From Algibacter lectus (GTDB taxonomy: Bacteria; Bacteroidota; Bacteroidia; Flavobacteriales; Flavobacteriaceae): a stretch of 64,000 nt of DNA. This document shows, in pieces, positions 31,946-54,726 of this stretch (position 1 is its first letter; each line of letters begins with the position of its first letter). The notes beneath the pieces are model-generated. The model made no database searches. It saw only the letters and a list, made by a program, of their open reading frames with translations, and was not told the DNA's origin. The stretch covers positions 62,001 through 126,000 of the forward strand of contig NZ_FOLN01000011.1 of NCBI RefSeq assembly GCF_900112395.1, in the 5' to 3' direction. The translations under genes and the position numbers were made by a program.

Positions 31946-34900
31946 TTAGAATGATACATTTAATCCCATGGATACAATTTTCTGTAACGGGTAAGATATG
32001 GCACTACCTGTTACACCAGCTGTAATATTTTCTGGATCAAAGAAGAGCATATCATTAACTGTAAATAGGTTTTCTCCAGTAACATAAAGTCTAAAATTGG
32101 TTATACCATGCTTGCTAGTTACATCTTTAGGAATTGTATATCCTAATTGTAAACTTTTTAATCTGGCATAAGCTCCATTTTGTATATAACGGTCAACTAC
32201 TTGACTATAATTTTTGTTATTTCTACCTGGGTTAGCAGAGTATGGTGCTGGGAAATAAGCATCTAAATTTGGCCCTAATGGATTTGTAGTATCTTCAGGT
32301 CTAAAGTAATCTAAGTGTTCTACCCAAACATTAGCATGGAATGCACCTTGAGCAGGACCTCTAAATCTTTGGTGATTAGATACTACGACATCTCTTTTTC
32401 CAACACCTTGTATAAAAGCATTAAAGTCTAAATTTTTATATACAAAACCAAGATTTACTGCATATTGATAACGAGGCGTGGTATTACCAAGTACACTCCA
32501 ATCTCCAGTGTCGCCAACTTCCCATGCGCCTCTGTTTATAGATCCGTCACCATCAAGATCTTTATATTTTGTATCACCAGCTGAATAAGCCCAACCAGTA
32601 ACTGCACTTTGATCTACAGGGTGATTTGCAGCTTCTTCATCTGTTAAAAACCAGCCATCCCATGTAAGACCGTAAATCGCACCTAAATCCTGTCCTGGGT
32701 AGTAGGTTTGAGTTAAAGATTGTGTTGCTGTTCCATCAGGAACAGGGTAATCTACAATGCTTCTTGTATAGTCAGAAAGTACAGCTCTAATATTATAACT
32801 AAAATCTTTACCTATATTTTGTCTCCATTTAGCCTCTACTTCCCATCCTTGAACTCTTGAAATTCCAGCGTTTGCTACAGGAGCACCTGTTCCTAACTGT
32901 GCAGGTAAATTAAGACCACTTGTAGCCATGTCTTCGATATCTGTGCGATACCAAGAAAAACCTATATCCAGTTTGTTGTTAAATGCGCTAAGATCAAAAC
33001 CAATATCGGTAGTTTTTACTTTTTCCCAAGTTAAGTTTTCACTGCCTAAACCTGGCGTAAAAGTGTAAGTTTCGCGCTGACCATCAAACAAATAGCTTGT
33101 TCCGCCAGTATTTAATTCTATATTAGATAAATATAAATAATTACTAACATTTTGATTTCCTAATGTACCATAAGACCCTCTTAATTTGAAGGTACTAATA
33201 GCATCTATAGGCCAGAAATCCTCTTTAGCTACGTTATATCCAGCCGAATAACTTGGAAAACCAGCCCATCTATCCTCTGGAGCAAATCTAGAAGCACCAT
33301 CTCTTCGGTAGCTAAATTCTAATAAATATTTTTCTTTGTAATTATATCTAAATCTACTAAATACACTTTGTGTTGCCCAATGTGTTATAGCTTCACTTAC
33401 AAGTTGGTCATCATCCAAAGATGCATTTATAGAAACTACATTATCAGAAATTAAATAATCGGTCTGTGCACCTAAACTATGAAAATTGTTTACCTCACTT
33501 TGGTATCCTACGGTAGCATTAACAGTATGGTTCCCAATTACTTTATCATAAGTCGTAAAAATGTTTGGAGAAAAATATTCGGTTGTTGCGAAAGCCGGAG
33601 AATAAGAAGTGTTTTGCTGCGCTACTCTATCAATAAAGCCGTTAGGTCTTATTTCTTGAACTGATAAAATACTCTCTTCTTCATAGTTATTACTTCTTTT
33701 ATAATTAAGATTAACATTTAATTTCAAGTCTTTAATAGGCTCAATAATAAATCTTGGTAATAAAACAAGTTGATTTTTTTCTGTTTTAACACGTTGAGTA
33801 TCCCAAAACGGAAAATAAGAGTGTCCAAGCCATTCTTCTCCATAAATAGGATCTACTAATGGAAAGGTTGGTTTTATTTTAGATAATAAGTCTAAAACTC
33901 CTGATAAGTCATTATCTGTCCCTCCTTGCGTTGGGTAATCTGAGTAGCTTTTTAAAACTTTAGTTAATAACTCTATTTTTAACCATTTATTAACTTGTGA
34001 AGAAATTTTTGCATCAAGATTGTATCGTTGAAAAGATTCATTTCCTACTTTCAAAAGACCACCTTCATCATAAGCCCCTGCAGAGAAATAATAGTTTATT
34101 TTTTGATCTCCACCTGATATACTTAAGTTATGTTTAGTTCTTTCAGCCCAATCTTTATATAAAACATCAGTCCAATCGGTAGCACCTGTAGCATCAATTC
34201 CAATACTGGTATAGTTCCAGTTTGTACCCGCAGCATTAACACCTAATGATGGCGCACTTCCAGGGTTTGCCATATTGGCCAAAATATTAGCTAAATCTGT
34301 TTCATCGTGATATGGATTTTGATTATTATTTATACGAGAATCATTAACTGTATAAGCAAAATCAATAGCGCTGGCTAATTCAGGTATTTTTGTTGGTTTC
34401 GTTAAAGCGAAGTTAGTACTATAAGTTACTCTCATCTTCCCTTTCATATTACTACCACTTTTTGTGGTAATCAATATAGCCCCACCAGCAGCTTGCGACC
34501 CATAAATAGATGCTGCTGCAGCATCTTTAAGTACAGAAACAGTTTCGATACTTTCAGGGTCAATATCATTTAAATTCATTTCAATACCGTCTACAAGCAC
34601 TAATGGCGAAGATTCTTGAACATTACCACCGCTACCTGCGCTAGTTAAAAAACCACGTATATTTATATTGGTATCAGCACCAGGTGCTCCACCAGAAGAC
34701 GAGTTACTAATTTGTAAACCTGGTACAGAACCTTGTAATGAACGAGCAACGTTTGCTGAAGGTCTGTTTTCAAAAGTTTCTGCACCAATTTGAGATACTG
34801 CTGCGGTTAAATTTACTTTTTTCTGAGTACCATACCCAACAACAACAACCTCATCAAGAGCAGCAATATCTTCTTCCAAAGTTATTTTTAAAACTTTTTG

Positions 34901-35245
34901 ATTAGTTACTGTAACTTCTTGAGTTTTAAATCCAACAAATGAAAACACTAACACAGCATTTTCTTTAGACGGTGTTATAGCGAAGCCTCCATCAAAATCT
35001 GATTGCGCTCCGTTTCCTGTTCCTTTCTCCCTAATATTAACACCTGGTACAGGTTGCCCATTAACATCGGTAATTGTTCCTGTTATTTGTTGCTGCAAAT
35101 AACTACGCGTTACTTTTAAATCTGCACTCGTGTTTGGCGCCAAACCAAAACTTGCAGAAACACACGAAAAAGCCAAAACACTCAAGAAAAAACCTAAGTG
35201 CCTTTTTTTTCGATAGAAAGCGAAATTGTGTAATTTAATTTTCAT
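31946..35245 (-). CDS. SusC/RagA-family TonB-dependent outer-membrane transporter (SusC3)
   Basis: 1099 residues. A long N-terminus (MKIKLHNFAFYRKKRHLGFF, then a hydrophobic run to about residue 36) is the export signal. It is followed by a carboxypeptidase-regulatory-like domain (about 54-135), DEVVVVGYGTQ, a plug (about 145-265) and a beta-barrel ending MGLNVSF. Its first about 140 residues closely resemble those of SusC2, and even the DNA around the start codons is similar, showing paralogy. Expression is probably driven from a promoter with the 21-bp-period direct repeat at 35440-35469, leaving a leader of about 150 nt. Confidence 0.95.
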   Translation of the reverse strand: MKIKLHNFAFYRKKRHLGFFLSVLAFSCVSASFGLAPNTSADLKVTRSYLQQQITGTITDVNGQPVPGVNIREKGTGNGAQSDFDGGFAITPSKENAVLVFSFVGFKTQEVTVTNQKVLKITLEEDIAALDEVVVVGYGTQKKVNLTAAVSQIGAETFENRPSANVARSLQGSVPGLQISNSSSGGAPGADTNINIRGFLTSAGSGGNVQESSPLVLVDGIEMNLNDIDPESIETVSVLKDAAAASIYGSQAAGGAILITTKSGSNMKGKMRVTYSTNFALTKPTKIPELASAIDFAYTVNDSRINNNQNPYHDETDLANILANMANPGSAPSLGVNAAGTNWNYTSIGIDATGATDWTDVLYKDWAERTKHNLSISGGDQKINYYFSAGAYDEGGLLKVGNESFQRYNLDAKISSQVNKWLKIELLTKVLKSYSDYPTQGGTDNDLSGVLDLLSKIKPTFPLVDPIYGEEWLGHSYFPFWDTQRVKTEKNQLVLLPRFIIEPIKDLKLNVNLNYKRSNNYEEESILSVQEIRPNGFIDRVAQQNTSYSPAFATTEYFSPNIFTTYDKVIGNHTVNATVGYQSEVNNFHSLGAQTDYLISDNVVSINASLDDDQLVSEAITHWATQSVFSRFRYNYKEKYLLEFSYRRDGASRFAPEDRWAGFPSYSAGYNVAKEDFWPIDAISTFKLRGSYGTLGNQNVSNYLYLSNIELNTGGTSYLFDGQRETYTFTPGLGSENLTWEKVKTTDIGFDLSAFNNKLDIGFSWYRTDIEDMATSGLNLPAQLGTGAPVANAGISRVQGWEVEAKWRQNIGKDFSYNIRAVLSDYTRSIVDYPVPDGTATQSLTQTYYPGQDLGAIYGLTWDGWFLTDEEAANHPVDQSAVTGWAYSAGDTKYKDLDGDGSINRGAWEVGDTGDWSVLGNTTPRYQYAVNLGFVYKNLDFNAFIQGVGKRDVVVSNHQRFRGPAQGAFHANVWVEHLDYFRPEDTTNPLGPNLDAYFPAPYSANPGRNNKNYSQVVDRYIQNGAYARLKSLQLGYTIPKDVTSKHGITNFRLYVTGENLFTVNDMLFFDPENITAGVTGSAISYPLQKIVSMGLNVSF

Positions 35246-35401: not shown

Positions 35402-35469
35402 TAAACCTATATATTCTAAACGTAATGAAGATAAGAATTTCGACAAACAACACCTGCCATTCGACAAAT
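35402..35469 (-). promoter_or_regulatory. LytTR-like direct-repeat promoter of susC3
   Basis: On the minus strand, 9-mers ATTTGTCGA (35461-35469) and GTTTGTCGA (35440-35448) are 21 bp apart (12-bp spacer). TAGGTTTA (35402-35409), 7 of 8 to TANNTTTG, starts 39 bp after the second 9-mer starts. The same layout occurs before susC2, the first GH20 gene and the NagB fusion. LytTR-domain proteins are known to bind 9-bp direct repeats with 12-13 bp spacers, and a LytTR regulator lies at 47632-48342. Confidence 0.72.
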
Positions 35470-35599
35470 AAGTATTAAAATCATGTTAATTTTTTATTAA
35501 CTAAAAAAGAACCCTTTTTATACAGACAATAGAAAATTGATTAAATTATGGTATTGGGGTATATAAAATTTTAATATTCTAGGTGTTTAAACCAAATTA

Positions 35600-35634
35600 A
35601 AAACCTCCAATGATTTAAAATCATTGGAGGTTTT
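35600..35634 (-). terminator. Orphan intrinsic terminator behind the susD relic
   Basis: 17-bp inverted repeat (AAAACCTCCAATGATTT and complement around one base). It lies 23 bp after the stop of the susD relic, just where a susD gene's terminator would be. No intact gene now ends here. Confidence 0.85.
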
Positions 35635-35657
35635 ATTATGAATAAATACTCTGAATT

Positions 35658-35708
35658 TTAGTACCCAGGATTCTGTGTTAGATTAACATTATCATCTAAA
35701 ATTAATAT
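35658..35708 (-). pseudogene. Remnant of a lost susD gene (last 17 codons)
   Basis: On the minus strand the frame reads ILILDDNVNLTQNPGY and then a stop. This matches the C-terminus of the neighbouring SusD2 (FLDANTNLTQNPNY-stop) and the NPGW end of SusD3. An in-frame stop lies just upstream, so nothing more of the gene remains. The following hairpin is its old terminator. Confidence 0.8.
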
Positions 35709-35893
35709 TGATTAATATATGTACTAAAAAAATTAGGAAGTTTGTTTCTTTAAAGTTATGATCTATTTAATTAGTCTCTTAAGTAAAGCTTAATATTGGT
35801 TTGAGAAACCTGCAAAATGATTTTTTGTTAAAAAATAAGTTCTAATTAATCTATACCCTCTCCCTTTAACACACTTAAATTTAATGGAATAAA

Positions 35894-35947
35894 AAAAGTT
35901 ATCAAAAAAGTAATATAAACATATATATTACTTTTTTGATAACTTTT
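35894..35947 (-). terminator. Long-stem terminator after susD2
   Basis: Perfect 24-bp inverted repeat (arms 35894-35917 and 35924-35947) with a 6-nt loop, 17 bp after the susD2 stop. The arms contain A- and T-runs that provide the U-tract on the minus strand. Confidence 0.88.
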
Positions 35948-35963
35948 ACTAATTTAACTATTT

Positions 35964-37679
35964 TTAATAGTTAGGGTTTTGAGTTAAATTAGTATTCGCA
36001 TCTAAGAATGGTAAAAATATTGGTAATAAGTAATATTTATCATCCCATACTCTTTCAAAACTGTCATTATTACTAGCTCTATATTTTTCACCTACTAAGT
36101 CTCCTGGTTCTGCTTCACTTACAGGGATACCAAATACAGGCTTTATAACTTGGTCGGCTAATTTATATCTCCAGATATCAAACCATCTTTGTGGGCCTTC
36201 ACCTGCAAATTCATAACGTCTTTCTAAAAGGATTGCATCTATCATTTGATTACCTGTTGTTCCTCTAGTAACAGTTGGTAAACCTATATCTGCGTATTTT
36301 GGCATACCAACGCGATCTCTAACTTCATCTAAGTACGGTAATGCTTCAGCATCTCTACCTTGACCAGCTAAAGCTTCAGCATACATTAATAGAACTTCAG
36401 AATACCGAATTATTTTTAAATCGGTTTCAGCATCTTCCATATCAACCGCTGTGTAATCTAAATATTTTCTAAAAAGATAACCTGTTGGACTGTTTACGGT
36501 TTCTATATTATCTCTCGAAGGATCAATATTTGGGTGTGGTTGAAATTCATATTCATCATCTAGACCACTTGTTGCAGGCACTATATCTCCAGATAAAACA
36601 GCTGAAGCTCCAAGTCTTGGATCTCTATTTATCCAAGGATTAGTGGGATCATAACTAGGATCATCTTTAGGAAATAATCCATTTATAGTTTGTACTTCTT
36701 CTATAAAATCAGAACTATAACCAGCTCGTCTTTGTCCAGTACCGCTATTTGCATAAGAGCCTCTAAGTGCAATTTGTCTTGATAGTTTGTTGTCTTCTCT
36801 ATCCGTTCCTGTTTCTAGTGCACAATGTCTAGCAAGAATAGTTTCTGGAGAAACCAAATCACTCTCAACAGTGAATTGGGCTTTAAAACCCTCTATACCT
36901 GGAACTAAAGCGTAAACACCAATATCATTAATTATTTCATCACAAGCAGTTTCAGCACCAGCATACATTGCGTTAACGTCACTAACCCAGCCAATAGCAT
37001 TTAAATACGTTCTTGCCTTTAAAGCCAGCGCAGCTCCTTTTGTAATACGACCTAAGTTTTCAGCATTATATGAGTTTGGTAATAAATCGTCAATTTCATC
37101 TAACTCAGTAATTACAAAATCAAAAATTTCTTGTCTAGGGGTTCTAGTTGGTTGTTCTGTTGGCGCAATGGTATTTGTTAAAAGAGGGACATCTCCATAA
37201 GCAAATAGCATAGATTCGTATATCCAAGCTCTTAAAAACCGTGCTTCGGCACCAAATCTAGCCCTGTTAGCTTCTGTTGTAAAACTTGCTCCTGGAAGTG
37301 CTTCTAAGAAAAAGTTAATATCAGCGATATCTTGATACCTATAAAAGGACCTTAAAGCTCTCGTATTTTCGCTCCATACAAAGTCCGATCCGTTAAAACC
37401 TGCACCATTAATATTTCTGTGGGTTGCATCATCTGTCCAAAAATAAGGCAATAAATAAGCCTGATCACTGTCTATAGCAAATACATTGTCTTCAAGGTTT
37501 GCTGTTGGAAGAGAAAAGTATAAAAAATCTAGAGCAAAAGTTAAATCTTCTTCTGTTTGATAAAGATTCGTGAGTTCATACTGATCAAGATCTTCCACTT
37601 CTAAGAAATCATTACAAGACACTAACGTGCTAAGTAATGTAACCAAAAGTATAATCTTATATGTTTTTATATATTTCAT
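35964..37679 (-). CDS. SusD/RagB-family outer-membrane glycan-binding lipoprotein (SusD2)
   Basis: 571 residues from the ATG at 37679. I prefer this start to the one at 37727, because it places a normal signal peptide (MKYIKTYKIILLVTLLSTLVSC) directly at the N-terminus, with the lipobox Cys followed by NDFLEVEDLD. The C-terminal SusD region is intact and ends NLTQNPNY. It is the surface partner of SusC2, encoded immediately upstream. The paired susC2/susD2 operon shares its promoter type with the susC3/susD3 operon, so both pairs should be induced together; they may take up different glycan sizes or glycopeptides. Confidence 0.93.
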   Translation of the reverse strand: MKYIKTYKIILLVTLLSTLVSCNDFLEVEDLDQYELTNLYQTEEDLTFALDFLYFSLPTANLEDNVFAIDSDQAYLLPYFWTDDATHRNINGAGFNGSDFVWSENTRALRSFYRYQDIADINFFLEALPGASFTTEANRARFGAEARFLRAWIYESMLFAYGDVPLLTNTIAPTEQPTRTPRQEIFDFVITELDEIDDLLPNSYNAENLGRITKGAALALKARTYLNAIGWVSDVNAMYAGAETACDEIINDIGVYALVPGIEGFKAQFTVESDLVSPETILARHCALETGTDREDNKLSRQIALRGSYANSGTGQRRAGYSSDFIEEVQTINGLFPKDDPSYDPTNPWINRDPRLGASAVLSGDIVPATSGLDDEYEFQPHPNIDPSRDNIETVNSPTGYLFRKYLDYTAVDMEDAETDLKIIRYSEVLLMYAEALAGQGRDAEALPYLDEVRDRVGMPKYADIGLPTVTRGTTGNQMIDAILLERRYEFAGEGPQRWFDIWRYKLADQVIKPVFGIPVSEAEPGDLVGEKYRASNNDSFERVWDDKYYLLPIFLPFLDANTNLTQNPNY

Positions 37680-37731
37680 ATTAAACTTTTTAATTAATTG
37701 TATGGATTTATGTTGTGTATTATTCATAATA

Positions 37732-40700
37732 TTAGAATTTAATATTTAGACCAACTGCAGTTGTAAAAGGTAATGGATATTGCACTGCACTTACACCAAG
37801 TTCTGGATCCCAACCACTATCGTATAGCGGACTGTTTGTCCAAATAACACCTAAGTTTTCAGCAGATACGTATAAGTTCATACTTTTTATGAATGAAATT
37901 TTACTAAGTATATCTTGGCCAAAATCATAATTAAGAGTAATGTTTTGTAATTTGATATATTCTGCATCTATTATAAGGTGGTCTACTCCAAGGTTCCAAT
38001 CTTGTAATGGACCAGTTGTAGTAAGTGCAGGATATAATGCATTTGTGTTAGTTGATGACCATACATCTGTTTGGTAAGAAAAAGGTACGGCATCTCCTAA
38101 AAATGGTTGTGATGCATTAGTCGTGTTTAAGTACTGGTTATTATCTAGTGCACCATAAAAACGAGCAGATAAAGATAAGTTTTTGTATGAAAAACCTAGA
38201 TTAAAACCGAAGTTGAAATTGGTGTCACTGTTACTGTCAATTATAATACGGTCATCACCATTAATGATGCCATCACTAGCATCCATAGTTCCATCACCAT
38301 CGGTATCTACGGTTAATTGATCGACAAATTTGAAATCTCCAACATCAGAACCTCCTACACCACTTTGATCTATAAGTGTTGCCCCATCACTAGACACATT
38401 GGCTGCAACTTCATTGGCATCATCAAAGAAACCATCAGTAACATAACCTAAACGATTATTAGCACTTAATCCAACTTGAAAATCAGGATCTGTAGAATCT
38501 TCTTGAATACGAGTGATTTTGTTGTCATAACTAGAAATATTTCCAGAAACTCTATAACCAAAATCTCCAATTTTATTTTTATGAGTTAAGTTTAATTCCC
38601 AACCCCAACTTTGTAAGTCGTAAGGGTTACCTTGGGCATCACCAAAGCCATATTCATATGCTGTTCCTTCTATATTTGAAAGAATGTCTTTACGCTTATT
38701 ATCGAAGTAATCTAATTCGAATTGAAATTTACCTCCAAATAATGAAGCATCAACTCCTATGTTGGTAATTGTAGATGTTTCCCAAACTAAATCTGGGTTT
38801 ACAAAAGTAGCTACGTTAAGTGACGAACCTATTGTCCCTCCTATAGGATAACCTCCTGCAGAAAAATTAACTAATTGTTGTGTAACAGCTCCTAAACCAC
38901 CATCATCTCCGGCTTGTCCAATAGAAGCTCTAAATTTTAATAAACTTATAAAGTTAGCATTGCTTAAAAAATTTTCTTTCGAAGCAACCCACCCAACAGC
39001 TACTGAAGGGAAGTAGGCCCATTGATTACTTTCTAAAAAATAAGAAGAACCATCAGCTCTAAAGGCAGCTTCAATTAAATATTTATCATCAAAACTATAA
39101 TTTAATCTTCCAATATAAGATAATGTAGTTTCATTTCCATTTCTAGTTTCTGCATTACCTGTACTATTTCCTACATCAGCATCTGCAATATCTCCTAGGG
39201 ACAATGAAAGGATATTATCAAAAAAGAAACCTGTTCTTGCGGCTTGAAATGCCTCATCTTCACCCGTTTCCGTTTGAATGGCAGCAAAGGCTTTTGCTGC
39301 ATGCTTACCTTTTTCGAAATCGTAAGTTGCAGAAGTTAAAGATCTAATGGTTTTACCAGTAAAAGAGGTTAAAGAAAGTCTTCTGTCTTGTGTTAGTCCA
39401 TTTATATACGTTCTGTTTGCTGAATCTGGATTTGTATATGAATCTGGATCCGACGCATCAAATGTAACAATGTCATATATATTATCCCAATCTCTTCTTA
39501 ATGAGTTTGTTTTAATTATTGAAACACGTTCCTCAATGGTTAAGCCTTTTACAGGTTTAAGTTGTGCAAATAATTGTAAGTTAACACGATCTAAATCTGT
39601 CGTATCAAAAGAACCCGAACCAGCATCTGCTACGTGATTACTATTGGCACTCGAACCATTACCTACCCATAAACCATCTTCACTCTGCACTGGAAAAAAT
39701 GGTAAACCTCTAACATTACTACCTGTAACAGTAATAACACTTGTATCAGTCCTATTACTAATTAAAGCATTAACTCCCACTGTTAACCAATCGGTAACAT
39801 CTGTATCTATTTTTAAACGTAGATTTAATCTTTCAAATTTATCATCACCTAAAGATAGACCGTCTTGTGTTAAATAACTAGCAGACATTAAGTACCCTGT
39901 GTTTTTTGACCCTCCTGTAAGTGTTAAATTGTGAGATTGTTGTAATGCCGTGTTTTCATAAAGTTCATCTGCCCAATTTGTATCTGGATAAAACCCACTT
40001 CTTGCAAGGTCTAATGCTGTATCATCCCATTTACCAGGTTCTACTGTATTCTGAAACTCCATATACTCTAATGAGTTTAATGTTGAAGGTAAATCTGGTT
40101 TAGATTGTATCGATGAGCTAAAGTTATAACTTACAGCTACTTTTTCGTCTCTATTAGTTCTTTTAGTTGTTACAAGTAGAACACCGTTAGCTCCACGAGC
40201 ACCATAAACAGCAACAGCAGATGCGTCTTTTAATACAGATACACTTTCTATACTTTGTGGATCAATATCTGATAGAGAGCCTTCAAACCCATCTATTATA
40301 ATTAGTAAAGTACCATCGTTAAGAGTACTTGTTCCTCTAATTGAAATATTTGGTACAGCACCAGGAGAACCATTATTATTGCTTAGTACCAAGCCAGGAA
40401 CAGCTCCTATTAAAGCAGAGTACCCACTAGTTACCGGTCTTTGATCTATTTTTAGCTCTTCAGCAGTAACTTGAGCAATAGAACTAACAACTTTGCTTGA
40501 TTTTTGAGAACCAAAACCAACAATTACAACTTCATCTAGTTGAGATATATCTTCTTCTAGTATAACTGTAATATCTGTTTGGTTACCTATAGGGATTTCC
40601 TTTGTAAGAAAACCAACAAATGAAAACACCAAAACGGCATTCTCGTTTGATGGACTAATAAAAAAGCCCCCATCAAAATCAGATTGAACTCCGTTTGTTG

Positions 40701-40926
40701 TACCTTTTTCAACAATATTAACACCCGGAATAGGTTGCCCGTTAACGTCTGTAATAAGTCCTTTTACTTGTTGTTGTAAATAGTTTGTAGTTTTTTTAGA
40801 TTCTACACTCTTAATAGGTTCCAAACCGTAACTGGCAGAAACGCACGAAAAAACCAATACGCTCAAGAAAAAACTTAAGTGCTCTTTTTTTCGATAGAAA
40901 GAGAAATTTTTTAATTTAATTTTCAT
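37732..40926 (-). CDS. SusC/RagA-family TonB-dependent outer-membrane transporter (SusC2)
   Basis: 1064 residues. The N-terminus MKIKLKNFSFYRKKEHLSFF plus a hydrophobic run is nearly the same as in SusC3. A carboxypeptidase-regulatory-like domain (about 54-135), DEVVIVGFGSQKSSK, a plug (about 145-260) and a barrel ending VGLNIKF follow. The acidic turn DGDGTMDASDGIINGDD in the barrel is a calcium-binding-like loop often seen in long SusC proteins. It is first in the susC2-susD2 operon and divergent from the GH20 operon at 41532. Its promoter at 41073-41140 carries the LytTR-like direct repeat. Confidence 0.95.
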   Translation of the reverse strand: MKIKLKNFSFYRKKEHLSFFLSVLVFSCVSASYGLEPIKSVESKKTTNYLQQQVKGLITDVNGQPIPGVNIVEKGTTNGVQSDFDGGFFISPSNENAVLVFSFVGFLTKEIPIGNQTDITVILEEDISQLDEVVIVGFGSQKSSKVVSSIAQVTAEELKIDQRPVTSGYSALIGAVPGLVLSNNNGSPGAVPNISIRGTSTLNDGTLLIIIDGFEGSLSDIDPQSIESVSVLKDASAVAVYGARGANGVLLVTTKRTNRDEKVAVSYNFSSSIQSKPDLPSTLNSLEYMEFQNTVEPGKWDDTALDLARSGFYPDTNWADELYENTALQQSHNLTLTGGSKNTGYLMSASYLTQDGLSLGDDKFERLNLRLKIDTDVTDWLTVGVNALISNRTDTSVITVTGSNVRGLPFFPVQSEDGLWVGNGSSANSNHVADAGSGSFDTTDLDRVNLQLFAQLKPVKGLTIEERVSIIKTNSLRRDWDNIYDIVTFDASDPDSYTNPDSANRTYINGLTQDRRLSLTSFTGKTIRSLTSATYDFEKGKHAAKAFAAIQTETGEDEAFQAARTGFFFDNILSLSLGDIADADVGNSTGNAETRNGNETTLSYIGRLNYSFDDKYLIEAAFRADGSSYFLESNQWAYFPSVAVGWVASKENFLSNANFISLLKFRASIGQAGDDGGLGAVTQQLVNFSAGGYPIGGTIGSSLNVATFVNPDLVWETSTITNIGVDASLFGGKFQFELDYFDNKRKDILSNIEGTAYEYGFGDAQGNPYDLQSWGWELNLTHKNKIGDFGYRVSGNISSYDNKITRIQEDSTDPDFQVGLSANNRLGYVTDGFFDDANEVAANVSSDGATLIDQSGVGGSDVGDFKFVDQLTVDTDGDGTMDASDGIINGDDRIIIDSNSDTNFNFGFNLGFSYKNLSLSARFYGALDNNQYLNTTNASQPFLGDAVPFSYQTDVWSSTNTNALYPALTTTGPLQDWNLGVDHLIIDAEYIKLQNITLNYDFGQDILSKISFIKSMNLYVSAENLGVIWTNSPLYDSGWDPELGVSAVQYPLPFTTAVGLNIKF

Positions 40927-41072
40927 AGAAATTCGAGTTAATTAACAATATTTTTTTTTAGATATTCTTAATTTTATTTTCAGGCAAAAATATTAATCAA
41001 CACTCAATATTGATTAAACAATATAGAATACTTTTAATATTAATACTTTTAAAATTTACATTAAGAATGTAA

Positions 41073-41140
41073 TAAATTTATAAGTTCTTTAAAGTTAACA
41101 GGTAACTATTTCGACCAATGACCTCTAGCTCTCGACAAAT
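41073..41140 (-). promoter_or_regulatory. LytTR-like direct-repeat promoter of susC2
   Basis: Minus-strand 9-mers ATTTGTCGA (41132-41140) and ATTGGTCGA (41111-41119) are 21 bp apart, and TAAATTTA (41073-41080) starts 39 bp after the second. The first 9-mer is identical to that before susC3. The leader to the ATG is about 147 nt. It lies in the 600-bp divergent region between susC2 and the GH20 operon, which otherwise shows no structure apart from the opposite promoter. Confidence 0.72.
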
Positions 41141-41369
41141 AATCAAAACACAACCTAAAAGCCCATTATCACTAGGATAATCCCTAACACAAAACGTATT
41201 TTTTATCTTACAAAAAGCAGTATTTACCCCCAAATACGCACCTAAACACAGCATAAATTCTCGCTCTTAAAACCTACAAATACAACTTAGTACGCTATAA
41301 TCTACATGATTACTGAATAATATTCCTTTAACCTTTTATAAAACCTTAAAGACGTAAGACGAAAACGAC

Positions 41370-41436
41370 TTTTATCTATAACCCTAAGTTATTGGTCGAA
41401 ATTTAAACTCATAAAACAGAAATAAGTATATTTTTA
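41370..41436 (+). promoter_or_regulatory. LytTR-like direct-repeat promoter of the first GH20 gene
   Basis: Plus-strand 9-mers TTTTATCTA (41370-41378) and ATTGGTCGA (41391-41399) have the 21-bp period. TATTTTTA (41429-41436) starts 38 bp after the second 9-mer starts. The second 9-mer is identical to the one of the susC2 promoter; the first is degenerate (3 mismatches to ATTTGTCGA). Confidence 0.65.
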
Positions 41437-41531
41437 TAACAAACTAATATGTGAAGATAAAATCAGTTTATTTTTTTACACCGCTAAAAAGTAAACGATT
41501 AACAACACTAACTTCTAACATCAACAAAAAC

Positions 41532-43886
41532 ATGAGTACCCCTTTTAGAAAGATAAAAAGCACATTAACCCCATACTTATTATGTTTCTTACTAGCACTT
41601 ACATCATGCGATAAAAAAGAACTAAAAATAGGAGAAACTGCAATTATCCCGTTACCAGCAGAATTAATAGAAGGCGACGGACATTTTATCATTAACGATA
41701 AAACAACTGTGTCAGTTAATAACAAAGAACAACAAGCCATTGCAACCAATTTTTTAAAAAAATTTGAAACCGCATCCGGATGGATCCCAGAAATAAGTAT
41801 AAATAATGAACAAGCAGATATTATTTTTTATACTGAAAAATCTCTCAACCCTGAAGCTTACGAATTAGTCGTAAATACAGGTGGCATACATATAAAATCG
41901 GCTTCAGGAGCCGGTTTTTTCTATGCTATGGAAACCATTGGACAATTACTGCCTACAACATTTTATTCCAAAGAAAAACAAACAAATACCATTTGGGGAA
42001 TTCCCGCTGTTACCATTAAAGACGAACCGGCTTTTAAATGGCGTGGTTATATGCTCGATGTTTCTCGTCATTTTTTCACAAAAGAAGAAGTAAAAGATGC
42101 TATTGATTTTATGGCAGAAGTAAAATTAAATCGTTTTCACTGGCATTTATCAGACGATAATGGATGGCGCATAGAAATTAAAAAATATCCAAAATTAACA
42201 GAGATTGGCGCTTGGCGTGTAAACCAAAATGATAAAGATGAAAACACTTCTAATTGGTGGGGACGCCCAACACAGCAACCTGGCGAAAAAGCAACATACG
42301 GCGGTTTTTACACGCAAGACGATATTAAAGAAATTGTAGCTTACGCCAAAGCACGATATATAGAGATAATTCCAGAAATAGACATGCCTAGTCACTCTTT
42401 AGCAGCTATTGCATCTTACCCAGAAATTTCGTGTTCTACAGGCCCTTTTTACGTAGGTACAGGTGGTGTAGTTAGAAACAACACTTATTGTCCTGGCAAA
42501 GAAGTCACCTTTGAGTTTGTTGAAAATGTTTTAGGTGAAGTTATGGATTTATTTCCTTTTGATTACATGCATATTGGTGGCGATGAATGTAATAAAGAAG
42601 CATGGGAAGTCGATCTAGATTGCCAACTCCGCATGAAAGAAGAAAATCTTGCCGATACACACGAGCTACAAAGCTATTTTGTTAAACGTGTAGAAAAAAT
42701 AGTAAATACCCACGGTAAAAATATGATTGGCTGGGACGAAATTCTAGAAGGTGGTTTAGCTCCAAACGCAACTGTTATGTCTTGGCGCGGAGAAAAAGGT
42801 GGCATTGCAGCAGCTAGACAAGGACACGATGTAATTATGACACCTTCACGATACTGCTATTTCGATTTAAAACAAGGTGACGACGACTTAGAACCGAATC
42901 TTGGTTACGCCTACTCTTTTTTAAAAGACACTTATAATTATAAAATAATTTCCGATAGCTTAACTACCGAACAAGGCAAACATGTTTTGGGTCTTCAAGG
43001 TAATTTATGGACAGAATCGCTTAGAAATTGGAGCCAAATAACCTACATGACATTTCCGCGTTTATACGCTGTAGCGGAAAATGGTTGGACCAGTCAAGCC
43101 GATAAAAACTGGGATGATTTTACAAACCGTTTACTTAACCAATTTAAACGTTTAGATCAAAAAGGCGAACGTTATGCAACAAGTGCTTATAATGCTAGAA
43201 TATACCATACTGGACAAAAAAATGGTAGTATAGAAATTGCTCTTAAAACCGAAGTTAATGGCATGGATATTTACTACACATTAGATGGTACAGAACCTTC
43301 GCTAACTTCTATAAAATACAAGAATCCTTTCTATATTCAAAATACAACCACTTTAAAAGCAACCACTTTTTATAAAGAAGAACAAATAGGCAATATTTCA
43401 GAAAAAACCTTTCCTATACATAAAGCCGTTGGCGCCAAAGTTGTTTATAATACACCAAAAATTACCGGTGCAAAAGAAACAAACAAGCTCATAGATTTAA
43501 ACTTCGGAAAATTAAACCGTGGCGATCGTAATTGGCAAAACATAAGAGGTAATTTAGATGTCGATTTAATCTTCGAAAAACTTACAGACATTCAATCTCT
43601 AGAAGTTACAAGTCTTAGGTTTACAAACTCTAGCGTTTATGTTCCCGAATACATTGAAATCTATGGCTCTAAAGACGGCAAAACCTTTACCAAACTAGGC
43701 GAAATTAAACAACTAGAAGCCAGCCATACTCAAGGCAGAAACAAAGTAAAATCTACTATAGAATTCGAAAAAACACAAGTAAAAGCCATAAAAGTTAAAG
43801 CTAAAAGCGTTAATCCAATACCAGAAGGGCATCGCAGAGCTGGTAACGCTTCGCTAATTCTAATCGACGAACTTATTGTTTTTTAA
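41532..43886 (+). CDS. GH20 beta-N-acetylhexosaminidase lipoprotein with C-terminal accessory domains
   Basis: 784 residues from ATG 41532. I prefer this to the GTG at 41451, because it puts a lipoprotein signal (lipobox Cys26 in LALTSC) at the N-terminus and leaves room for a leader after the promoter. Domains: GH20b alpha/beta domain (about 40-160), GH20 catalytic barrel (about 165-520) with the Asp-Glu pair D351-E352 in HIGGDEC, a chitobiase/hexosaminidase C-terminal domain (DGTEPSLTSIKYKNP), and a discoidin (F5/8 C)-like domain at the end. It removes terminal beta-GlcNAc by substrate-assisted catalysis, probably from N-glycan antennae. It is followed 27 bp later by a second GH20 gene. Confidence 0.95.
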   Translation: MSTPFRKIKSTLTPYLLCFLLALTSCDKKELKIGETAIIPLPAELIEGDGHFIINDKTTVSVNNKEQQAIATNFLKKFETASGWIPEISINNEQADIIFYTEKSLNPEAYELVVNTGGIHIKSASGAGFFYAMETIGQLLPTTFYSKEKQTNTIWGIPAVTIKDEPAFKWRGYMLDVSRHFFTKEEVKDAIDFMAEVKLNRFHWHLSDDNGWRIEIKKYPKLTEIGAWRVNQNDKDENTSNWWGRPTQQPGEKATYGGFYTQDDIKEIVAYAKARYIEIIPEIDMPSHSLAAIASYPEISCSTGPFYVGTGGVVRNNTYCPGKEVTFEFVENVLGEVMDLFPFDYMHIGGDECNKEAWEVDLDCQLRMKEENLADTHELQSYFVKRVEKIVNTHGKNMIGWDEILEGGLAPNATVMSWRGEKGGIAAARQGHDVIMTPSRYCYFDLKQGDDDLEPNLGYAYSFLKDTYNYKIISDSLTTEQGKHVLGLQGNLWTESLRNWSQITYMTFPRLYAVAENGWTSQADKNWDDFTNRLLNQFKRLDQKGERYATSAYNARIYHTGQKNGSIEIALKTEVNGMDIYYTLDGTEPSLTSIKYKNPFYIQNTTTLKATTFYKEEQIGNISEKTFPIHKAVGAKVVYNTPKITGAKETNKLIDLNFGKLNRGDRNWQNIRGNLDVDLIFEKLTDIQSLEVTSLRFTNSSVYVPEYIEIYGSKDGKTFTKLGEIKQLEASHTQGRNKVKSTIEFEKTQVKAIKVKAKSVNPIPEGHRRAGNASLILIDELIVF

Positions 43887-43913
43887 AAAATTAATACTAA
43901 CAACACACTCATA

Positions 43914-45554
43914 ATGAAAAACACTCTACTAATTGCGCTGTGCATCATTGTTTCAGCCTGTTCAAACAAATACGCAAAGGTCATCAATGCCGAAGCAGAT
44001 TACCACATTATTCCAAAACCTACATCTTTAAAAATTTCCGAAGGCAGATTTTTGCTAGATAAAAACACTGTAATTACTGCAGAAACGGCATTAGAAAATG
44101 AAGGACAATACCTTTCTGAAATGCTAAGTACTGTTTCTGGTAAAAGCATTCCTTTTTCTAAAGAAACCCAAGGAAACATTCTATTAAAGCTAGATGAAAC
44201 CATAGAAAACAATGAAGGTTATACCCTTTCTGTAAGCTACAATCAAATTACAATTACTGGTAAAACAAGCGCTGGTGTGTTTTATGGAATTCAAACCTTA
44301 AGTCAGTTAATTCCTTTACCTGCAACTGCTAGTAACACTCAAACAGAAGTTTCAATTCCTGCAACAAGTATTGTCGATAGTCCAAAATTTGTTTACCGAG
44401 GCATGCATTTAGATGTTGCTCGTCATTTTTTCCCAGTATCGTTCGTTAAAAAATACATAGACATATTGGCCATGCACAAAATGAACACTTTTCATTGGCA
44501 CTTAACCGAAGATCAAGGATGGCGTATAGAAATAAAAAAATATCCAAAACTTACTTCTATTGGTAGCATTAGAAAAGAAACTATTGTTGGTCATGGCAAC
44601 ACATGGAATAAACCAGACGTGAAATACGATGGTAAACCTTACGGTGGTTTTTACACTCAAGAAGATATTAAGGAGGTTGTCGCTTACGCGGAAACAAGAC
44701 ACATTACCATAATTCCAGAAATAGAATTACCAGGACACTCTCTTGCTGCCATTACGGCTTACCCAGAACTTGGAAACACAGGCGAACAATATGAAGTTGG
44801 AAAAAGATGGGGCGTATTTCCAGAAATATATGCACCAAGCGAAGAAACCTTTAAATTCCTAGAAGATGTTTTAACAGAGGTTATTGCGCTTTTCCCTAGT
44901 AAATTAATACATATTGGAGGCGATGAAGCTCCAAAAAAACAATGGGAAGCCAGTAAATTAGCTCAAGATATTATTAAAAGAGAAGGCTTAAAAGACGAGC
45001 ATGAATTACAGAGTTATTTTATTCGACGTATTGAAAAATTCTTAAACTCTAAAGGACGAAATATTATTGGTTGGGATGAAATTCTAGAAGGTGGTTTAGC
45101 ACCAAACGCAACCGTAATGTCTTGGCGTGGTGAAAAAGGAGGTATTCAAGCTGCAAAAATGCATCATAATGTAGTGATGACGCCTACTCGTTTTTGTTAT
45201 TTTGATTTCTACCAAACAAAAGATAGAACTAACGAACCTCTTGCTATTGGCGGAAACACTTCCGTAGAACAAGTTTATAGTTACAACCCGTTACCAAAAG
45301 AGTTAACCAAAGAAGAACAAAAATACATTTTAGGCGCACAAGCCAATGTATGGACCGAATACATCAAAACACCAGAACAGGTTGAATATATGGTTTTACC
45401 AAGGCTTACAGCGTTATCTGAAGTAGTATGGTCTAGCTATGAAACTAAAGATTGGAACGATTTTCAAACACGCCTTATTCATCTAACAAAAAGGTATGAA
45501 GCACTTGGTTTAAATTATGCAAAACACAGTTTAGAGATTAAAACCGAAAAATAA
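43914..45554 (+). CDS. GH20 beta-N-acetylhexosaminidase lipoprotein (short form)
   Basis: 546 residues. The signal peptide has a lipobox at Cys16 (VSAC). An N-terminal GH20b domain (about 25-150) precedes the GH20 barrel (about 155-510). The catalytic Asp-Glu pair is D337-E338 in HIGGDEAPK, and GWDEILEGGLAPNATVMSW is conserved as in the two other GH20 proteins here. It lacks the extra C-terminal domains of its neighbours. It is second in a two-gene unit with the larger GH20. Three GH20 enzymes in one locus suggest different linkages or different cleavage steps. Confidence 0.95.
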   Translation: MKNTLLIALCIIVSACSNKYAKVINAEADYHIIPKPTSLKISEGRFLLDKNTVITAETALENEGQYLSEMLSTVSGKSIPFSKETQGNILLKLDETIENNEGYTLSVSYNQITITGKTSAGVFYGIQTLSQLIPLPATASNTQTEVSIPATSIVDSPKFVYRGMHLDVARHFFPVSFVKKYIDILAMHKMNTFHWHLTEDQGWRIEIKKYPKLTSIGSIRKETIVGHGNTWNKPDVKYDGKPYGGFYTQEDIKEVVAYAETRHITIIPEIELPGHSLAAITAYPELGNTGEQYEVGKRWGVFPEIYAPSEETFKFLEDVLTEVIALFPSKLIHIGGDEAPKKQWEASKLAQDIIKREGLKDEHELQSYFIRRIEKFLNSKGRNIIGWDEILEGGLAPNATVMSWRGEKGGIQAAKMHHNVVMTPTRFCYFDFYQTKDRTNEPLAIGGNTSVEQVYSYNPLPKELTKEEQKYILGAQANVWTEYIKTPEQVEYMVLPRLTALSEVVWSSYETKDWNDFQTRLIHLTKRYEALGLNYAKHSLEIKTEK

Positions 45555-45589
45555 GCGCTTAGCAAATAAACACGTCACTCAACTGATTT

Positions 45590-45656
45590 TTTTGTCTATA
45601 ACTAGAAGTTACTGGTCGAAATTTTAAGACATTAAAACAATAAAAAGATAGTTTTG
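45590..45656 (+). promoter_or_regulatory. LytTR-like direct-repeat promoter of the NagB-fusion gene
   Basis: Plus-strand 9-mers TTTTGTCTA (45590-45598) and ACTGGTCGA (45611-45619) have the 21-bp period, and the full-consensus -7 box TAGTTTTG (45649-45656) starts 38 bp after the second. GGTCGAAATTT is shared with the GH20 promoter. The start codon is 27 bp after the -7 box, giving a short leader. Confidence 0.72.
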
Positions 45657-45683: not shown

Positions 45684-47597
45684 ATGCAAACAGAACCAAT
45701 TAAATACAGAGAAGCCGGTAAATTTGAAGAAACACGTTTTGAGAAAATACATAATGTTATTTTCGAATCTTCGCAAGATGCTTCAATTATCGTTGCTCAA
45801 GAAATAGCTACTTTAATTAAAGAAAAAAGCGCAGCAAACAAACCTTGTGTTTTAGGTCTTGCAACTGGGTCTTCGCCTATAAAAGTTTACGAAGAACTTG
45901 TAAGAATGCACAAAGAAGAAGGTTTAAGTTTTGCTAACGTGGTATCTTTTAATTTGGATGAATATTATCCAATGGATAAAAACAACATCCAAAGTTACTA
46001 TTACTTCATGCACGAGCATTTGTTTAATCATGTTGATATTCTTCCTGAAAATGTTAACGTTCCAAATGGTACAGTAAGCCCAGAAGATTTACATCAATAT
46101 TGCATTGATTACGAAAACAAAATTACAGAACTTGGAGGTTTAGATTTCCAATTACTAGGTATAGGTAGAACAGGTCATGTTGGTTTTAACGAACCTGGAT
46201 CGCACTTTAATTCTAGAACACGAAGCATTATTTTAGATCACATTACAAGAGCCGATGCGGCACCTTCATTCTTAGGTATCGATAATGTGCCTAGAAAAGC
46301 TATTACAATGGGTGTTGGTACCGTAAGAAGTGCTAAGCGTATTGTTTTATTAGGTTGGGGTTTAAATAAAGCTAGTATTTTAAAAGAAACTATTGAAGGT
46401 GAAATTACAGGGCAAGTTCCTGCAACATACTTACAAGAACATGATAATACTACATTTGTTCTAGATCAAGGTGCAGCGGCAGAACTTACTCGTGTTAAAA
46501 CACCATGGTTAGTAGCGTCTTGTAAATGGACCGAAGAGTTAGAACTTAGAGCTGTTGTTTGGTTAAGCCAATTAACAGGTAAACCTTTCTTGAAATTAAC
46601 CGACAAAGATTATAACGATAACGGCATGTCCGATTTGTTAGTTGAAGAAGGTTCTGCATACGATTTAAACATTAAAATGTTTAATAAAATGCAAAAAACC
46701 ATTACTGGTTGGCCAGGTGGAAAACCTAATGCAGACGACTCTAATCGTCCAGAAAGAGCAACTCCAGAAAGAAAACGTGTTATTATTTTTAGTCCACATC
46801 CAGATGATGATGTTATCTCTATGGGCGGTACTTTCGATAGATTAGTACAGCAAGGACACGATGTGCATATTGCATACCAAACCTCTGGAAACATTGCTGT
46901 TTCTGATGAAGAAGCTTTAAAATTTGCTGAAATAGCAAAAACATTTAACGCAGATGCTAAAGAACCTCAAGCTATTATAGATTACCTAAACGATAAAACA
47001 GGTAATGAAATAGACTCTCTTGAAGTAAGAAAACTAAAAGCACTTATTAGAAGAAGTGAATCTCTTGGAGCTACACGCTACTTTGGATTAGACGATGACC
47101 ACGTTCACTTTTTAGACCTTCCTTTTTACGAAACAGGAACTATAAAAAAGAATAATTTAGGTCAAGATGATATTGCCATTGTATGCGAATTAATAGACAC
47201 TATTAAGCCTCACCAAATATATGCCGCCGGCGATTTAGCCGATCCACATGGTACTCACAAAGTTTGTTTAGACGCCATTTTTATAGCCTTAAAAGCTTTA
47301 AAAAGCAATAGCTATATGGACGATTGCTGGGTTTGGTTATACCGTGGTGCATGGCACGAATGGGAATCTTACGAGATTGAAATGGCTGTACCAATGAGTC
47401 CAGACCAAGTTTTAAGAAAAAGACATGCTATATTTTATCACCAATCGCAAAAGGATGGTGTTATGTTTCAAGGAGACGATAACAGAGAATTTTGGGTAAG
47501 AGTTGAAGATAGAAATAGACTAACAGCAAAAAAATACAACGATTTAGGCTTAGCTGATTATGCAGCTATTGAAGCCTTTAAACGTTATCATTTTTAG
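45684..47597 (+). CDS. nagB: Glucosamine-6-phosphate deaminase fused to PIG-L (LmbE-like) deacetylase domain
   Basis: 637 residues, cytoplasmic. Residues about 20-290 are a NagB domain with LDEYYP (Asp92) and GIGRTGHVGFNEPG (His165, Glu170), which converts GlcN-6-P to Fru-6-P and ammonia. Residues about 365-630 are a PIG-L/LmbE domain with the zinc motif PHPDDD (371-376) and a late DPHGTH. PIG-L enzymes remove N-acetyl groups from GlcNAc derivatives. The fusion is known in Bacteroidetes, and deacetylation followed by deamination in one chain is plausible, but the activity of the second half is inference. The gene has its own promoter with the PUL's direct repeat. Confidence 0.93.
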   Translation: MQTEPIKYREAGKFEETRFEKIHNVIFESSQDASIIVAQEIATLIKEKSAANKPCVLGLATGSSPIKVYEELVRMHKEEGLSFANVVSFNLDEYYPMDKNNIQSYYYFMHEHLFNHVDILPENVNVPNGTVSPEDLHQYCIDYENKITELGGLDFQLLGIGRTGHVGFNEPGSHFNSRTRSIILDHITRADAAPSFLGIDNVPRKAITMGVGTVRSAKRIVLLGWGLNKASILKETIEGEITGQVPATYLQEHDNTTFVLDQGAAAELTRVKTPWLVASCKWTEELELRAVVWLSQLTGKPFLKLTDKDYNDNGMSDLLVEEGSAYDLNIKMFNKMQKTITGWPGGKPNADDSNRPERATPERKRVIIFSPHPDDDVISMGGTFDRLVQQGHDVHIAYQTSGNIAVSDEEALKFAEIAKTFNADAKEPQAIIDYLNDKTGNEIDSLEVRKLKALIRRSESLGATRYFGLDDDHVHFLDLPFYETGTIKKNNLGQDDIAIVCELIDTIKPHQIYAAGDLADPHGTHKVCLDAIFIALKALKSNSYMDDCWVWLYRGAWHEWESYEIEMAVPMSPDQVLRKRHAIFYHQSQKDGVMFQGDDNREFWVRVEDRNRLTAKKYNDLGLADYAAIEAFKRYHF

Positions 47598-47631: not shown

Positions 47632-48342
47632 TTATATAGAGGAGTTCAATATTTTTTGTTTAACTTCTTCAACATAAGACCTTCCTATTACATACCTAAG
47701 CCCTTCTATTTCTACACTATTGCCTTCTACAGCATCAATTTTATCAATAGCTACGGTATAAGATCTATGAATTCTAATAAAATCATTAGAAGGTAATAAA
47801 TTAGTAAAATCTGATAATGTACTGTGGATAATATATTTCCCCGTAAGGGTATTTATTTTTAAATAATCTTTTAAAGATTCTACGGTTAAGATTTCATCTA
47901 AAAAGATTTTTTTCATTTTCTTCTTATCAATTTTAACAAAGATATATGGTCTATCTTTAGAGGTATCTACTATTACTTTGTTATTCTCTAACCTCCTATT
48001 CACCTTATTTAAGGCCTTCATAAACCTCGGAAATTCTATAGGTTTAATAAGGTAATCTAGAACATCTAGTTCGTAGGTTTCTACAGCAAACTCATCATAA
48101 GCACTTGTAATAATTAAAAGTGGCGGATTCTCTAAACTCTTAATAAAGTTTAAACCATCGAGTACAGGCATGTTAATATCCAAAAATATAACATCTACCG
48201 TGTTACTCTTTAAAAAATTTAAACCATCAATAGCATTACTAAATGTATTAATAAGTTCAAAATCTTCTATTTGCTCCAAATAGTTTTTAATGACATTTAT
48301 AGCAAGAGGTTCGTCGTCTATTATTAAGCATTTTACCTTCAT
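47632..48342 (-). CDS. LytTR-family response regulator
   Basis: 236 residues. The receiver domain (1-120) has acidic pocket DDE at 9-11, phospho-acceptor Asp55 in FLDINMP, and Thr/Ser and Lys switch residues (ITSAYDEFA, LIKPIEF). A LytTR DNA-binding domain (about 135-235) has FLDEILTVESLKDYLKI and NDFIRIHRSYTVAID. LytTR domains bind 9-bp direct repeats about one and a half to two turns apart. It is encoded just downstream of its kinase (15-bp gap) and is convergent with the NagB-fusion gene. It is the best candidate to bind the four 21-bp-period repeats of this PUL. Confidence 0.93.
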   Translation of the reverse strand: MKVKCLIIDDEPLAINVIKNYLEQIEDFELINTFSNAIDGLNFLKSNTVDVIFLDINMPVLDGLNFIKSLENPPLLIITSAYDEFAVETYELDVLDYLIKPIEFPRFMKALNKVNRRLENNKVIVDTSKDRPYIFVKIDKKKMKKIFLDEILTVESLKDYLKINTLTGKYIIHSTLSDFTNLLPSNDFIRIHRSYTVAIDKIDAVEGNSVEIEGLRYVIGRSYVEEVKQKILNSSI

Positions 48343-48357
48343 GAGTTTGTATTAGTT

Positions 48358-49446
48358 TTAAGAGACTTTTATTTTAAGCTTAACAACAAACATGTCATCA
48401 TCACTTTTAATATCTAATTTATAATCATTTTTTTCATAGCCTAATGCTAATCGTTTCTTCACGTTTTCTAAACCAATCCCACTAGATTCAGAAAACGTTT
48501 CCTGATACTCTGTAATTACAGGCATAGGATTTGAAATCGTAAAATACAGAAAATCTTCTTTAATAGATAAATCAATTTCAATTTTAACTTCTCCTATATT
48601 TTTGTGTACACCATGTTTAAACGCATTTTCTATAAAAGAAAGCAATATTATAGGTGCAATTTCCTTATCGGAAATATCTCCAGAAATAGACATATCTATC
48701 TCTAATTGATCATTATGCCTAACGCGTTCTAGGTCTAAATAATTTTGAATACAAAGAATTTCGGCTTCTAAAGATTGGCGTTTATTTTTTGTTTCATAAA
48801 GCAGATATCTCATCAATTCTGCCAATTTTAAAATGATTTTTGGCGTTTTTTTCGATTTCTCTACAGATAACGAGTAAATATTATTTAAAGTATTGAAGAA
48901 AAAATGCGGTGAAATTTGAGTTTTTAGAAATAATAATTCGGTTTCTAATTGTGTTTTTTCAAGATCTGCAACACGCTTATGTTCTTCTAAAAAATCTAAA
49001 GTAATTTTAATGGCGGTAACAAACGTAACCACATAAAGTTCTCCAAACATCATATCTATGGTATAATTTAACGATAGATTTGTAATGGTTGCAGGACCTT
49101 CTGGCCATACATTTTGATTTACCATAAAGTATGTTAAATTGAACTTTACCACTACCATAATAAAGATAGCCGATAGCATAATTACAATATAAGATACGTA
49201 CTTTTTCTTAAAGGCAAGCTTAGGCATTAGCACATAAATATTAAGGTAACATAATATCATGTGTATCGGAAAACCAAGCGTATTTGTTTTTAAAGAGTAC
49301 CAATAAGGGAACTCTAAAACGCCTTCAAATGAAACATCGTCAAAGTAACTACCCCAACGTAAAGTGTTTAGAGTAAAGTATCCTAACCAAAAAAGAATAT
49401 GATGTTTTAAGGATACTTTGTAGAGGTGATTTGATATAAAATCCAC
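48358..49446 (-). CDS. LytS/YehU-type sensor histidine kinase
   Basis: 362 residues. The N-terminal half has about four transmembrane helices (about 15-35, 45-70, 80-105 and 118-140). A short coiled coil leads to the His_kinase domain with the phospho-acceptor His in ISPHFFFNTLN (about residue 180), an N-box (SFIENAFKHG) and a G-box (GIGLENVKKRL). There is no extracellular sensor domain, so the ligand is probably sensed in the membrane or via a partner. It forms a two-component operon with the LytTR regulator and is divergent from the first GH92 gene. Use of a LytS/LytTR pair for PUL control is less common than HTCS, SusR or ECF systems. Confidence 0.92.
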   Translation of the reverse strand: MDFISNHLYKVSLKHHILFWLGYFTLNTLRWGSYFDDVSFEGVLEFPYWYSLKTNTLGFPIHMILCYLNIYVLMPKLAFKKKYVSYIVIMLSAIFIMVVVKFNLTYFMVNQNVWPEGPATITNLSLNYTIDMMFGELYVVTFVTAIKITLDFLEEHKRVADLEKTQLETELLFLKTQISPHFFFNTLNNIYSLSVEKSKKTPKIILKLAELMRYLLYETKNKRQSLEAEILCIQNYLDLERVRHNDQLEIDMSISGDISDKEIAPIILLSFIENAFKHGVHKNIGEVKIEIDLSIKEDFLYFTISNPMPVITEYQETFSESSGIGLENVKKRLALGYEKNDYKLDIKSDDDMFVVKLKIKVS

Positions 49447-49572
49447 GAGAGTAAAATAAAATTAGAGGTATTTTTTGATGTTTACCTGAGTTAATGCGTT
49501 ATCCGTCTAAATAACTTTTAATATTCGCTAAATTTATGAAAATTTAAATAATTAAACCGCTTAAATCATTTT

Positions 49573-54716: not shown

Positions 54717-54726
54717 AGCGATACAG

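Follow-up and report, generated by a model that had tools for sequence, protein, structure and literature searches.

The window, a 64,000-nucleotide stretch of the Algibacter lectus genome, encodes SusCD pairs, GH20 and GH92 proteins and a two-component pair, arranged as follows:

31946-35245, minus strand: susC2, with susD2 after it at 30221-31927
37732-40926, minus strand: susC3, with susD3 after it at 35964-37727
41451-45554, plus strand: two GH20 genes, the true start of the first being probably ATG 41532
45684-47597, plus strand: NagB/PIG-L fusion (domain searches)
47632-48342, minus strand: response regulator with receiver and LytTR domains (Pfam), the proposed binder
48358-49446, minus strand: sensor kinase of the His_kinase family (Pfam and sequence boxes)
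49573-62544, plus strand: GH92, SSF, GH130, CBM9, GHL10, GH92, glycosylasparaginase and GH20 genes, taken as one operon because of their spacing

Pfam assignments across the cluster comprise two GH92 and three GH20 proteins, SusCD pairs and a sodium symporter. The GH130 protein is closest to UHGB_MP (515 bits), which we take to be an N-glycan phosphorylase, and the asparaginase-family protein matches glycosylasparaginase (413 bits). Together with the GH92 and GH20 sets and the symporter, these two matches make it likely that the cluster is a polysaccharide utilization locus (PUL) serving the use of N-glycans. A LytTR response regulator and its kinase had been placed at 47632-49446 by the first-pass annotation, and domain searches agree: the receiver and LytTR domains scored 72.5 and 63.5 bits against Pfam cut-offs of 30.2 and 22.6, whereas the adjacent kinase matched PF06580 with 81.5 bits and carries the family boxes ISPHFFFN, NAFKH and GIGL. 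Neither Pfam nor NCBIfam named a sensor domain in the kinase. The LytTR regulator was the only transcription factor named by Pfam among 18 ORFs between 28.8 and 62.5 kb (ORFs of at least 120 aa, two antisense ORFs excepted). For the first GH20 gene, GTG 41451 is only 15 nt downstream of the -7 box of the GH20 promoter described below; a start at ATG 41532 gives 784 aa, which is also the length aligned by two relatives' regions, and is the likelier one.

Four promoters of the cluster had been described as carrying paired 9-mers 21 bp apart (start to start) followed by a TANNTTTR box 38 to 39 bp further on, and all four were recovered at their positions. That list was nevertheless incomplete, as it missed a fifth, diverged site at 49480-49512 (plus strand). 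The predicted elements are given below, with scores from a weight matrix that was built from 17 sites (the four in the window and 13 from other genomes) and controlled with reversed sequences.

35440-35469, minus strand: predicted operator upstream of susC2, ATTTGTCGA (35461-35469) and GTTTGTCGA (35440-35448), 21 bp apart; 43.3 bits, training site
35402-35409, minus strand: predicted -7 box TAGGTTTA of the susC2 promoter, by sequence reading, its offset class tallied in 53 sites
41111-41140, minus strand: predicted operator upstream of susC3, ATTTGTCGA (41132-41140) and ATTGGTCGA (41111-41119); 41.9 bits, training site
41073-41080, minus strand: predicted -7 box TAAATTTA of the susC3 promoter, by sequence reading
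41370-41399, plus strand: predicted operator upstream of the GH20 genes, TTTTATCTA (41370-41378) and ATTGGTCGA (41391-41399); 38.3 bits, training site
41429-41436, plus strand: predicted -7 box TATTTTTA of the GH20 promoter, by sequence reading
45590-45619, plus strand: predicted operator upstream of the NagB/PIG-L fusion, TTTTGTCTA (45590-45598) and ACTGGTCGA (45611-45619); 44.4 bits, training site
45649-45656, plus strand: predicted -7 box TAGTTTTG of the NagB promoter, by sequence reading
49480-49512, plus strand: fifth, diverged site in the gap that separates the kinase gene from the GH92 operon, GTTTACCTG (49480-49488) and ATCCGTCTA (49501-49509), 21 bp apart
49539-49546, plus strand: possible degenerate -7 box AAAATTTA at +38 of the fifth site, a weak assignment by sequence reading

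The 21-bp period is common to all four strong promoters and leaves a 12-bp spacer, in keeping with LytTR direct-repeat geometry (9-bp repeats, 10- to 13-bp spacer); a LytTR-type operator had been claimed for them. Measured from the first base of the second 9-mer, the box begins at 38 bp in the plus-strand sites and at 39 bp in the minus-strand sites. The 9-mers are only near the consensus first proposed, as had been said of them, and the exact consensus pattern has a single match in the 4.81-Mb genome. The LytTR half-site consensus of other bacteria is not evident in the repeats of the window. A possible inverted repeat, ATAAC...GTTAT or GTTAC, lies between the 9-mers of the GH20 and NagB sites (41378-41394 and 45598-45614, plus strand).

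The distance to the -7 box was tallied in 53 non-redundant sites (less than 80% identity over 83 nt), drawn from 81 sites of at least 12 bits; the box columns lie outside the matrix score. TANNTTTR started at +38 in 27 of them and at +39 in 18 (45/53), the next offset being represented by 4 sites. An offset of 44 to 50, guessed at the outset, accounted for just 5 of the 53 and was discarded for the 38/39 that the free tally gave. Bacteroidota promoters have the consensus -7 element TANNTTTG and a -33 TTTG, and the TANNTTTR box agrees with this -7 element. If transcription is assumed to start about 6 bp after the box, the repeats span approximately -72 to -43, upstream of the expected -35 and without overlap with the -7 box. 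According to the available part of one account, LytTR operators consist of 9-bp repeats 10 to 13 bp apart, and the regulators are mostly activators that bind upstream of -35 (PMC11347149). The placement in the window is close to that of the AgrA repeat, whose center is put near -60 in the available text of another (PMC4227749).

A pattern fitted to the four window sites (TTTGTCKA-N13-TTGGTCGAAA) had four matches with at most one mismatch in the 4.81-Mb genome, all at the four window promoters, compared with none for the control, i.e., the pattern read backwards. One match was added at two mismatches and 12 at three, and the latter tier is noise because the control gives 44 matches at up to three. 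Since the pattern was derived from the window sites, independent support must come from relatives. With the own genome left out, 397 family genomes yielded 28 matches with at most one mismatch versus 13 for the control; 10 of the 28 adjoin orthologues of the N-glycan PUL, and the remaining 18 are near background. The two-mismatch match in the own genome (C30:12015, equivalent to position 7966 of L046, minus strand; 21 bits) lies after pnp and was taken as chance because the ORFs of at least 100 aa include none downstream of it on its strand. Another match, C25:728378 (three mismatches), overlaps the gap between two long same-strand ORFs.

Scanning named genomes for the response regulator gave at least 80 loci with 59 to 86% identity; for the short loci L128-L157, the analysis covered three lengths. 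Many of the matches listed are from Flavobacterium, and others are from Tamlana, Maribacter, Formosa, Gelidibacter, Tenacibaculum, Wenyingzhuangia and further genera. Among the 80 loci of the matches listed, a GH92 or SSF gene diverges within 500 bp of the kinase gene in 72, regulator and NagB fusion are no more than 3 kb apart in 49, and the matrix found 54 sites of at least 14 bits (8 of them training sites) versus none in reversed sequences, or 64 versus 1 at a threshold of 12 bits. The motif is kept at most nagB promoters: among the matches listed, 43 of 51 nagB upstream regions held a site of at least 8 bits (three of them training sites), and none of the 51 reversed regions did. At the same threshold, among the matches listed and with zero reversed hits throughout, a site preceded GH92a in 7 of 71 cases (no training site), the SusC1-like gene in 1 of 10 and SusC2 in 4 of 4, which is no independent evidence because all four trained the matrix. 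Upstream regions of the other genes held no such site among the matches listed: SSF (0/77), GH130 (0/76), CBM9 (0/75), GHL10 (0/70), glycosylasparaginase, GH92b and GH20c (0 each), and, in sense, regulator (0/80) and kinase (0/78). Twenty further regions from 19 family genomes, examined together with two stretches of the own genome, contained 22 sites above 8 bits versus none reversed; 21 of these are spread over 16 regions, which include training genomes, and one is in the own-genome stretch L046. A genome of the same genus (G335) has the site at all four strong promoters. The motif thus keeps company with orthologues of the LytTR pair across genera.

A search of 249 family genomes gave NagB fusions in 141, and 157 of 397 genomes encode the regulator at E<=1e-50; nagB promoters were compared by regulator status. 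A motif of at least 5 bits was absent from all 20 nagB promoters of genomes without a regulator match (hand-picked, roughly best NagB matches first, from genomes outside the 157), whereas it was present at 6 of 20 (L271, L273, L279, L283, L285 and L287) where the regulator is present but not directly beside nagB (Fisher one-sided, 0.010). The latter set includes three genes from genomes without a regulator closer than ∼48% (G189, G217 and G227) and two near a chitin-type regulator (L275 and L276), and its other 14 nagB promoters are without the motif at this threshold. Of the six motif-bearing genes, three are either ∼50 kb from the regulator or on another contig (not necessarily distant when the genome is a draft), and the others lie at ∼10 to 30 kb. 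The comparison is confounded in that regulator-free genomes may also be without the PUL. These patterns point to a trans-acting factor that co-occurs with the pair, but the remainder of the PUL shares this co-occurrence.

More distant regulators also have repeats beside them. Those with 55 to 61% identity (L208-L226, plus L227 with 50%) are mostly found beside the same mannosidase operon; an example of their sites is TTTAGCTTTTGAATATTGTTATTGGTCGAAATTTTA in L217, and in L224 and L227 a site precedes a SusC gene. Regulators with 46 to 54% identity (L188-L207) are mostly in loci with SusC, SusD and a NagB fusion, often with GH20, and the NagB fusions of 19 of these 20 loci are 69 to 83% identical. 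When the half-site of the window's group, GTTRTTKGT, chosen after inspection of both groups, was applied to this chitin-type group, a pair at lag 21 matching at least 14 of 18 positions appeared in 17 of 21 kinase-divergent regions, compared with 10 for the next lag and at most 8 for reversed sequences; at 15 or more, the counts were 9 versus 4. A blind lag scan favored 21 bp only in the chitin-type group, many rows of which are close kin. Such kinship holds for L189-L197, and the diverged L202, L203, L204, L207 and Flavobacterium johnsoniae also hold the lag-21 pair. In a tree of 72 rows, for which 28 rows of the window's group were drawn at random, this group and the 55 to 61% group were united (99/99), L125 of the window's group fell in the next group, the chitin-type group did not resolve as a single clade, and two outgroup rows, one probably in a wrong frame, sat on very long branches; the regulator groups are otherwise identity bins. 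The kinase-susC intergenic regions of L191, L195, L196 and their kin share an element, CTTATCGA, ∼17 bp upstream of the first repeat.

The chitin-type group includes the regulator of F. johnsoniae. Its locus (strain CI04) runs GH20, NagB/PIG-L, SusD-like, SusC-like, GH18, SusD-like, SusC and, divergently, kinase and LytTR regulator; we equated it with the published chitin locus by gene content and order, and the contig ends inside the gene expected to be ChiA. The response regulator has a LytTR domain and is 47% identical to that of the window (kinase, 38%), and the repeat GTCGTTTGT-N12-GCCGTTTGT lies at the promoter beside it, that of the divergent susC. A cusS-cusR deletion mutant no longer grew on chitin and lacked ChiA (PMC5127042); the main text of that paper contains neither "LytTR" nor "histidine kinase". 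LytTR control of a PUL, first regarded as outside the standard schemes, therefore has a precedent in this regulator, although one that the available text does not label as LytTR. Like the window, the F. johnsoniae CusS/CusR locus combines a kinase and LytTR regulator with two SusCD pairs, GH20, NagB/PIG-L and a 21-bp repeat, there at the divergent susC promoter; it differs in its substrate, chitin, and in its diverged half-site.

The fifth site of the window scored -6.4 bits with the 17-site matrix, and its first repeat is poorly conserved. A block resembling GTTTAGCT...GTTnTCCGTCTAAA recurs in the kinase-divergent regions of relatives; its anchor was present in 82 of 98 regions (41 non-redundant) and absent from 16. 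The family pattern of this site matched the own genome once, without mismatches, and nothing else with up to three mismatches, the control giving none. Lag tests did not single out the 21-bp period at kinase/GH92 promoters: in blind scans it ranked fourth, behind 24, 51 and 15 bp in the window's group and behind 24, 30 and 27 bp in the next group, and with the half-site, lag 14 equaled or exceeded lag 21 and reversed sequences of the window's group resembled the real ones (22 versus 26 of 78). TANNTTTR offsets in 41 such regions were split (28 in 10, 12 in 7, 7 in 7 and 38 in 6), so that a fixed promoter distance is less clear for this class than for the main sites. The operon running from GH92, SSF and GH130 to GH20 probably also belongs to the regulon, via a weak, diverged site.

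The lag-21 repeats beside distant LytTR regulators, the box distance and the co-occurrence all fit the reading of the repeats as LytTR operators. We therefore consider it probable that the linked response regulator binds the repeats and activates the N-glycan PUL as one regulon, as the first-pass annotation had proposed; conservation, the 0/20 in regulator-free genomes, the box distance and the related repeats support its proposal, which had left out the GH92 operon. Binding, dimerization, phosphorylation, activation and the signal are what we infer from sequence. A signal from N-glycan breakdown would lead the kinase to phosphorylate the response regulator (47632-48342), which, as a dimer, would bind both 9-bp repeats and bring RNA polymerase to those promoters whose -7 box is TANNTTTR. 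The resulting regulon would comprise two SusCD importers, the GH20 enzymes and the NagB fusion, and the weaker fifth site would add the GH92/GH130/glycosylasparaginase operon.

Another transcription factor encoded elsewhere, for instance of the LytTR or AraC type, might instead bind the repeats while the linked pair controls something else. The genome does encode seven further response regulators that match the LytTR query over most of its length, and an AraC-type protein would suit direct repeats ∼21 bp apart. This alternative is nonetheless unlikely, considering that the motif tracks orthologues of the linked pair across genera and is missing from the 20 regulator-free nagB promoters, and that related pairs have related repeats next to them. 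Still less credit is due to the idea that the regulator binds the repeats but represses, or works with a second activator: LytTR repressors such as CoxC are on record in the available part of PMC11347149, but the repeats lie upstream of the expected -35 and clear of the -7 box, and expression requires CusSR, a related pair (PMC5127042).

Two further proteins encoded in the window were considered as binders, namely, a TPR protein (27215-28654, minus strand), whose C terminus looks HTH-like by inspection (Pfam names only TPRs), and a Crp-like protein (14906-15478). This is very improbable, as a comparison with 140 relatives' regions returned no match for the TPR protein and four weak ones (23 to 30% identity) for the Crp-like protein, and with the 17-site matrix nothing in the PUL next to the TPR gene scored above 4 bits. 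The TPR gene adjoins SusC1/SusD1 and three sulfatase genes, and its product perhaps regulates that separate PUL. Chance or shared promoter ancestry without regulatory function could be suspected because nagB promoters of close species are alike throughout and the sites themselves had shaped the first pattern, but it has a negligible probability given that motif and box distance are kept in 53 sites with less than 80% identity, before different gene families (susC, GH20 and nagB) and with reversed controls near zero.

The best-supported description is that of a predicted operator with ordinary LytTR geometry and a half-site of its own, serving a flavobacterial N-glycan PUL. AgrA and other LytTR regulators, as far as the available sources describe them, share with that of the window the combination of receiver and LytTR domains, 9-bp direct repeats, a 12-bp spacer and a center near -60; they differ in their half-site, and the window's regulator serves a glycan PUL with TANNTTTR promoters. 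Known PUL regulators of Bacteroides include SusR, hybrid two-component systems and ECF sigma/anti-sigma factors. As in those, the sensor-regulator is encoded with the cluster it would control; unlike them, the window has a separate kinase and LytTR regulator, and Pfam named no SusR, hybrid or ECF protein in this PUL. Among the matches listed, the open-licence literature on LytTR and the chitin locus yielded no LytTR operator of a PUL; one paper (PMC5320581) reportedly mentions LytTR for PULs of Firmicutes. Compared with Cyanobacteria and Proteobacteria, Flavobacteriaceae have a greater abundance of LytTR domains (PMC7440613).

On balance, we lean toward the broader view that, in flavobacteria, LytTR two-component systems whose kinase is a separate protein are an additional type of PUL regulator, specialized for glycans that contain GlcNAc (chitin and N-glycans). 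The branches of this class would use direct-repeat operators with a 21-bp period and a constant spacing from the -7 box, and their half-site would have changed along with the diverging regulators. With operator, regulon and promoter spacing defined, the control of N-glycan use can be put to a direct test and is linked to a chitin regulator established by genetics, and the operator pattern can be used to predict such regulons from sequence.

Among the relatives' loci, L021, L022, L039 and L040 have in common an element like TTTGTCTAA...ATCTATTGGTCGAAAAAATAG, which in L021 coincides with the beginning of a 129-aa ORF resembling a STAS protein by inspection. The window also contains a 2303-aa ORF at 5578-12489 (plus strand).
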